Source of the DNA: Candidatus Gaiellasilicea maunaloa
Lineage (GTDB): Bacteria > Actinomycetota > Thermoleophilia > Gaiellales > Gaiellaceae
Reading direction: 5' to 3'
Assembly (NCBI GenBank): GCA_024330215.1
Contig: JANDLU010000034.1
Location: 1 to 32,295, forward strand
Length of the DNA: 32,295 nucleotides
Shown: piece by piece, positions 14,227 through 21,600 of the stretch
How the letters are laid out: each line of letters opens with the position of its first letter
Position numbering within the stretch: the first letter of the stretch is position 1
Position numbers and translations under genes: made by a program
Notes under the pieces: model-generated
Database searches by the model: none
The model's input: only the letters and a program-made list of their open reading frames with translations
What the model was told of the DNA's origin: nothing

Positions 14227-14313
14227 CTACGCGGGTTCGCCGCGGGCGTCCCGAATCGCGTCGATCAACTGCCCGGTCGTGCAGAGGATGAGGCTGCGCT
14301 TGTCTCCGATGCC
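14227..14313 (-). pseudogene. PIN-toxin C-terminal fragment
   Basis: The minus frame over these bases reads DKRSLILCTTGQLIDAIRD followed by ARGEPA and a TAG, nearly the same as the C-terminus of the PIN protein at 20746-21180. The DNA at 14231-14292 matches 20750-20811 at 55 of 62 positions. A TGA lies immediately upstream in frame, so no start and no catalytic residues remain. It is a broken copy left by recombination or decay. Confidence 0.75.
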
Positions 14314-20745: not shown

Positions 20746-21180
20746 CTAAGCTGGTTCGCCGCCGGCGTCCCGGATCGCGTCGAGCAACTGGCCGGTCGTG
20801 AAGAGGGTGAGGCCCGCTGCCTCCAGGTCCTTGTCCTGCGACCAGATCGGGAGCGCGCGGGCGAGGGCAAGGGCGACGGTCGGCCAGTCCTCGGGGTCGC
20901 GGCCGGCCATGCGGCGCTCGGACTCCCGACGCTCGGGCTCATAGACGGCCGGAGGCTGCCAGTCGACCGGCATGACGCTCAGGGCTGCGAGGAGGAGACC
21001 GGCGTCGAGGCCACGTCGCCCGGCCAGCGCGGGCAGATGCTCGGCGACCTCCTCGGCCACCGCCTGGGCGGCGAGACACGTCGGACCGGCGGGTGAGGCG
21101 AAAACGATGCGGGCGCGCCCGCCGATCAGCGCCGAGAGGATGACGTTCGCGTCAGCGACGACGGCGGGCGGCAGCGAAAT
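20746..21180 (-). CDS. PIN-domain ribonuclease toxin (VapC-like)
   Basis: This frame of 144 residues has the PIN pattern: AVVADANVILSALIGG supplies the first aspartate (about residue 10), QAVAEEVAEHL the glutamate (43/44), DPEDWPTVALAL and WSQDKDLEAAG the remaining aspartates. All four acidic positions are present, so it looks catalytically competent as an Mg-dependent RNase. No ATG, GTG or TTG lies between the upstream in-frame TGA and the domain. The best candidate start is ATT at 21178-21180, with GAGGAGG nine bases before it (an ATG changed to ATT?); CTG two codons later is another option. It overlaps the antitoxin 3' end by 29 bases. Confidence 0.75.
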   Translation of the reverse strand: MSLPPAVVADANVILSALIGGRARIVFASPAGPTCLAAQAVAEEVAEHLPALAGRRGLDAGLLLAALSVMPVDWQPPAVYEPERRESERRMAGRDPEDWPTVALALARALPIWSQDKDLEAAGLTLFTTGQLLDAIRDAGGEPA

Positions 21181-21406
21181 CGCTGAGAACCTCCTCCTCG
21201 GTCACCCCTCGAGCCTCACGCTGTGCCGCGATCTGCTCCGTGAGGCGCAGAAACACCTCGCGTCGCACATCGGCAGGGAGCTCAGGGGCGTCCCAGGGCA
21301 GGAAGAACCCAGCGGGCCGGCCCTCACGGGTCACGAGAATGACGTCGTCGGAGCGAAACATCTCGCTCGCCCGATCGCGAAAGTCCCGCACGGTCACAAC
21401 TCTCAT
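21152..21406 (-). CDS. Phd/YefM-type antitoxin
   Basis: This 84-residue protein reads MRVVTVRDFRDRASEMFRSD, the N-terminal DNA-binding and dimerisation part of Phd-type antitoxins. VILVTREGRPAGFFLPWD follows, then a charged C-terminal tail (EVLSDFAAARRRR) that would bind the toxin. It lies upstream of, and overlapping, the PIN frame, in the standard antitoxin-toxin order. The ATG at 21404-21406 is used because the family starts here; longer frames upstream are arginine-rich noise. A 20-bp imperfect palindrome sits directly upstream and may be the autoregulatory operator. Confidence 0.8.
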   Translation of the reverse strand: MRVVTVRDFRDRASEMFRSDDVILVTREGRPAGFFLPWDAPELPADVRREVFLRLTEQIAAQREARGVTEEEVLSDFAAARRRR

Positions 21407-21426: not shown

Positions 21427-21526
21427 ACTCTAGCACCGCGGAGTCAAACGGTCGACGCCTGGGTCTGCGCAAGACGTTTACCACGGAGCGAACAGAGGAG
21501 AGCGAAATCGTGCGGGCCTTTTGTAG

Positions 21527-21600
21527 TAGCGGGGGCAGGATTTGAACCTGCGACCTCCGGGTTATGAGCCCGGCGAGCTACCTGACTGCTCCACCCCGCG
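21527..21600 (-). tRNA. tRNA-fMet (CAT anticodon)
   Basis: The 74-base sequence folds as a full cloverleaf with 5' acceptor CGCGGGG, 3' acceptor CCCCGCT and discriminator A, and a D-arm from GAGC to GCTC. The anticodon arm is CCGGG-CTCATAA-CCCGG and the T-arm GCAGGTTCAAATCCTGC. The first acceptor pair is C-T rather than Watson-Crick and the anticodon stem has three GC pairs next to the loop, both initiator features. CCA is not encoded. Downstream on the minus strand, AAAAGGCCCGCA resembles only the left half of the hairpin at 16908-16929. Confidence 0.95.

Follow-up and report, generated by a model that had tools for sequence, protein, structure and literature searches.

On the minus strand of the window (the whole stretch of 32,295 nucleotides that was analyzed), a predicted toxin of the PIN_2 family is encoded at 20746..21180, comprising 144 aa when counted from an ATT codon and ending at a TAG stop (20748-20746). 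The protein was assigned to PIN_2 by its profile (PF10130; 79.6 bits against a cut-off of 22.4), and none of the NCBIfam profiles scored above a cut-off. Searching the PDB by sequence gave no match at E 0.1. An AlphaFold2 model (mean pLDDT 93.3) had mostly PIN/VapC proteins as its top structural matches in the PDB (TM-score about 0.5-0.7), with 10-22% identity to these solved structures. The acidic residues D10, E44, D95/D98 and D116, which we take to be catalytic from what is known of PIN domains, were invariant in 12/12 aligned rows including relatives, confirming the claim of the original prediction that all four acidic catalytic positions are kept. The frame is intact with every acidic residue in place, and its product appears PIN/VapC-like, with a predicted RNase activity. 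A search of plasmid sequences returned no match. Elsewhere in the window, positions 14230-14295 (minus strand) hold a 22-codon remnant of the C-terminus of this same PIN gene including its stop (77% identity), the trace of a second, lost copy.

The putative antitoxin gene (21152..21406, minus strand) encodes 84 aa from an ATG and stops at a TGA (21154-21152) that overlaps GAC 21153-21151, the codon of the PIN catalytic Asp. Its N-terminus is Phd/YefM-like. Against PF02604 (Phd/YefM) it scored 13.6 bits (E 0.057), under the cut-off of 29.8 and so outside the family, and we describe the likeness as a resemblance of the N-terminus only. The two genes overlap by 29 nt, with the PIN frame at +1 relative to the antitoxin, and the same +1 relation was seen in 20/20 loci laid out for comparison (the window, Actinomycetota, Chloroflexota, Bacillota, Poribacteria, Aminicenantes and one viral contig). 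The antitoxin stop falls exactly at the PIN Asp codon in 15 of these 20, 6 nt later in three (L012, L013 and L037) and 15 nt before it in two (L056 and L057). A small antitoxin gene directly upstream is kept with PIN across these genomes, which is the architecture of a type II operon, and from this gene layout we predict a type II toxin-antitoxin pair, toxicity and neutralization being part of the prediction. VapBC and FitAB share the PIN fold (as judged from the PDB matches), and they too have a small antitoxin gene upstream; the window pair differs from them in its PIN_2 toxin (PF10130), its Phd-like antitoxin and its lack of a canonical toxin start.

The PIN frame follows an in-frame TGA (21204-21202, minus strand), with seven codons between this stop and the ATT. 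As originally predicted, no ATG, GTG or TTG lies between the TGA and the catalytic Asp codon, which is codon 10 of the frame; the first canonical start is an internal GTG at codon 41 (21060-21058), past the first active-site residue. When the same stretch was scanned for ATT, ATC, ATA, CTG, ACG and AAG, only two near-cognates were present: the ATT that we propose as start codon (21178..21180, minus strand), made of the antitoxin codons GAT TTC (Asp-Phe), and a CTG (21172..21174, minus strand), made of antitoxin GCT GCC. The strong ribosome site reported ahead of the ATT was also found, as a Shine-Dalgarno-like GAGGAGGAGG (21190..21199, minus strand) that lies inside the antitoxin Glu-Glu-Glu-Val codons and ends 9 nt before the ATT, and the 16S rRNA 3′ end of the same genome carries the matching anti-SD GGATCACCTCCTTT. 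At 9 nt, the spacer is close to the upper limit of the usual range. The antitoxin tail reads GAG GAG GAG GTT CTC AGC GAT TTC GCT GCC, which one base on gives the PIN codons ATT TCG CTG; the motif that it encodes, E-E-V-L-x-D-F-A-A, is conserved, and the same codons hold GAG GAG GAG G as ribosome site and gAT Ttc as putative start. A missing canonical start in so short an overlap is not rare per se, since random synonymous recoding of antitoxin tails yielded one in only 11-32% of draws. What stands above chance is an identical ATT held in eight loci by a gene under purifying selection.

Those eight loci came from comparing start codons with the closest homologs, the check proposed alongside the original prediction. 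ATT-TCG-CTG was found in eight distinct loci (the window, L005, L006, L010, L014, L022, L026 and L054) belonging to two bacterial families of one class, so that the putative ATT start is present in 8/9 loci of the class, counts which are not independent as the loci are related; the ninth, L027, has a TTG. A canonical start was absent within reach (from the upstream stop to the catalytic Asp) in 7/8 ATT loci. The exception was L022, where an in-frame GTG lies seven codons upstream behind AAGGGGG. In L005 and L014 a single codon separates the in-frame TGA from the ATT, leaving ATT and CTG as the near-cognates among those scanned. ATT is the commonest state of the clade at this position and does not look like a fresh mutation in the window.

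Locus L027 (G279, around 1480) reads ACT TTG CTG, having lost the ATT and gained a TTG at the next codon, with both changes silent in the antitoxin. It looks like a natural start-codon swap from ATT to TTG. In the PIN phylogeny, all six complete sequences from the class fell into one clade (95/90) with L027 nested within it, making ATT the likely older state. Outside the class, distant Phd/PIN relatives have a TTG or GTG near the same place, at the corresponding Asp/Glu-Phe codons, and one relative on a viral contig (L069) has an ATT at the Asp-Phe position plus a GTG near the Asp. Of two Chloroflexota loci, L007 has the CTG without the ATT, with an extra CTG 6 nt after AGGAGG, and L055 has neither an ATT at this position, nor the CTG, nor a canonical start. 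The upstream GTG of L022 and the CTG-only state of L007 limit the claim made for ATT.

The genomes compared were draft assemblies, largely of environmental origin, and duplicates were counted once (L017, L024 and L063 as L005; L025, L040 and L049 as L006; L047 as L022; L048 as L026; L050 as L027; L020 as L014; L041 as L007; L018, L021, L066 and L068 as L010), the same-genome status of L005/L017 and of L006/L025/L040 being judged from equal matches and coordinates. Loci of another PIN_2 subfamily (DASVLVGEL-type: L023, L028, L031-L036, L051-L053 and L058-L060) were omitted; where read, the DASVLVGEL-type loci of the class and phylum had ATG, GTG or TTG starts. Also omitted were L008/L019/L030/L065 (a C-terminal fragment at the edge of a contig), L015 and L016, whose frames are broken, and L038, L039, L061 and L067. 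Three of the eight ATT loci are truncated or damaged: in L010 both frames are broken, L014 is at a contig end, and L054 has an internal PIN deletion. In L054 (G789, minus strand) an in-frame deletion joins PIN at about residue 32 to the C-terminus with the antitoxin intact, and this locus would be a disarmed module. In L055 (G828, minus strand) about 70 residues are inserted in frame within the PIN domain, the frame staying open; owing to this long insert, L055 was not counted as support despite its lack of a canonical start.

Another possible start is the CTG at 21174-21172, which follows the ATT by two codons and would make the ATT a by-product of antitoxin GAT TTC; we regard this as unlikely, if still the most plausible of the alternatives. 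All eight ATT loci and L027 keep the CTG, as does L007 at the corresponding position, and the underlying GCT, which makes up 7% of Ala codons, is nonetheless fixed in 8/8 rows; the extra CTG of L007 also sits close behind its ribosome site. However, the window CTG lies unusually far from the GAGG core (15 nt), a Leu at residue 3 accounts for its fixation just as well, and a start there leaves the conserved GAT and the TTG gained by L027 unexplained. ATT is favored over CTG for its better spacing and because it accounts for both the GAT and the L027 swap, although the two are not separable from sequence alone. A start at GTC (codon 7 or 8), or at an upstream canonical codon in some members, is improbable. 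The window does have GTC GTC at this place, sigR of Streptomyces starts at GTC (PMC5472188), and L022 has its upstream GTG; but a GTC is even farther from the Shine-Dalgarno than ATT or CTG, the other seven ATT loci lack any upstream canonical codon, and a GTC start would cut beta strand 1, which is formed by residues 6-9 in the AlphaFold2 model. With that strand where the model places it, a start at ATT or CTG would keep the domain whole.

Outside the overlap, dN/dS of PIN was 0.15-0.36 in all 21 pairs of 7 sequences (Nei-Gojobori; several dS near saturation), with 0.23 for the window against L005. The PIN protein is under purifying selection. The stretch DANV[IV]LSALIGGRAR, ahead of every internal canonical start, was the same in 9/9 class loci except at the I/V position, from which translation must be expected to start upstream of it. 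This bears on translation from the internal GTG (21060) only, which would give a shorter PIN without the first catalytic Asp. That GTG is the first canonical start in the frame (104-aa ORF) and the probable choice of a gene caller, but codons 10-24 before it are among the most conserved of PIN and the synonymous freeze described below reaches the ATT, so we consider such a start the least probable of all the readings.

Constraint on the overlap itself was assessed at fourfold, amino-acid-invariant codons of the antitoxin. From the start to codon -10, 27/29 of these varied, against 1/5 in the overlap (Fisher p = 0.0015, which is optimistic as the rows are related; 8 rows, L010 being excluded for its broken antitoxin frame). 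Val -12 still varies; the freeze sets in between it and Asp -9, approximately at the ATT. Asp -9 is GAT in 7/8 rows (8/9 class loci with L010), compared with a GAT share of 22.5% among 129 Asp codons from seven window ORFs chosen by G+C pattern; Asp -74 is also GAT in 6/8 rows, so GAT at -9 is weak evidence when taken alone. The freeze, together with the +1 offset of PIN from the antitoxin that all class loci share, would also fit a fused antitoxin-PIN product made by a +1 frameshift out of the antitoxin frame. We think this very unlikely, as no shift-prone codon was recognized by eye in GAT TTC GCT GCC or CGT CGC TGA, L027 retains the gene despite changes in two of these codons, and an overlap of this kind is also seen in distant relatives whose starts are TTG or GTG.

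The original prediction had left two outcomes, of which one was a toxin silenced by mutation of its ATG. A lost ATG with a decaying PIN frame would be in keeping with the damaged members (the broken frames of L010, the deletion of L054 and the insert of L055). The data speak against it: none of the nine class loci has an ATG in the overlap, and the finding named in advance as counting against the ATT proposal, an in-frame ATG there in homologs, was not made among the close relatives; ATT is the state that most of them share; an ATG at the ATT position would need GAT TTC to become GAT GTC (by direct reading), altering a conserved antitoxin Phe; and the window PIN is intact and, by its dN/dS against L005, constrained. 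Silencing is accordingly a very doubtful explanation. The other outcome, low toxin output from an ATT or CTG start, is supported at the level of sequence by the eight loci, the purifying selection, the freeze and the L027 swap.

Our preferred reading, to which we assign a probability of roughly 0.58, is that the locus encodes a type II Phd-like/PIN pair in which toxin translation begins at a non-canonical codon, AUU being the likeliest, within the final codons of the antitoxin gene. A conserved non-canonical toxin start inside the antitoxin gene appears to be a real feature, and by analogy with the systems discussed below it would work like a dosage brake. As the relatives share the ATT and PIN is kept by selection, the toxin is probably made sparingly from the ATT and is not dead. 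In the mechanism that we propose, AUU would be ancestral to the clade and held inside the codons for the antitoxin Asp-Phe motif, the conserved antitoxin tail supplying both the ribosome site and the toxin start. The antitoxin would begin at its ATG, while the AUU start of the toxin would yield little product per message; discrimination by IF3 against AUU would make toxin starts rare and leave the antitoxin in excess, with IF3 fidelity setting the toxin level, as suggested by sigR. Toxin translation may also be coupled to ribosomes that are translating the antitoxin and that would terminate at the TGA over the catalytic Asp codon.

The closest parallel comes from sigR-rsrA of Streptomyces. There, sigR has a GTC start, conserved across species (32/34), behind a strong ribosome site AGGAGGTG; the start is repressed by IF3, was missed by annotation tools, and when made canonical upsets the ratio of SigR to its antagonist (PMC5472188). 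Like the window pair, sigR-rsrA involves an actinobacterial effector whose dose relative to an antagonist matters (PMC5472188). It differs in having GTC and not ATT, in being a sigma/anti-sigma pair, and in the effector gene coming first. A second parallel is KacAT4 of Klebsiella pneumoniae, a type II system with the antitoxin first, a 14-bp overlap and a toxin start weaker than AUG (GUG in 369/370, CUG once), and its absent toxicity is attributed to the GUG start codon (PMC9431474). KacAT4 differs in its GNAT toxin and RHH antitoxin, and in that GUG is a standard start, which its authors treat as a point mutation (PMC9431474). IF3 repression has been demonstrated for sigR, and it is from sigR and KacAT4 that we infer weak, IF3-controlled initiation of the window toxin. 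The infC gene of E. coli resembles the proposed window toxin start in its AUU and discrimination by IF3 (PMC5472188), and differs in that IF3 there regulates its own synthesis. According to the same source, infC starts with ATT in E. coli and ATC in Streptomyces (PMC5472188); in the order of the window, a conserved TTG, sometimes GTG, start was read from the motif in 19/30 infC loci (L062 and L070-L098, with L091 and L098 from one genome), the motif not being found in 11/30. The infC loci read thus provide no native example of an AUU start in this lineage. Published examples already exist of type I and type II toxins with weak or non-AUG starts (PMC8167048, PMC6562991, PMC9431474), and literature searches found no report of an AUU-started type II toxin in the text that they covered.

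A tRNA-fMet gene with a CAT anticodon, initiator by sequence reading, lies 119 bp before the antitoxin ATG (21526..21600, minus strand), and an identical tRNA gene is upstream of the pair in L010 and L014. No initiator tRNA was found in L005, L006, L022, L026 or L027; ARAGORN detected a tRNA-Met near L054 and L055 that, by reading, is not initiator-like. The initiator tRNA was rejected as a conserved neighbor, as only the window, L010 and L014 share it. The VapC of Leptospira is reported to cut initiator tRNA (PMC4105405). As a speculation for the three members behind an initiator tRNA gene, a toxin that cleaved this tRNA would first lower its own translation, which depends on a weak start, and would thereby limit the arrest. 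That the AUU locked in the Asp-Phe codons is the selected dosage brake of the clade, with toxin, initiator tRNA and IF3 fidelity forming one loop in these three members, is a long shot.

If AUU is the start, gene callers would miss the toxin genes of this clade or truncate them, choosing the internal GTG and losing the first catalytic residue. L027 and the window offer a natural comparison of TTG with ATT in a related context. If the reading is true, a type II toxin would be added to the very short list of bacterial genes in which a start of the AUU type is conserved, and toxin dosage would depend on the fidelity of initiation.
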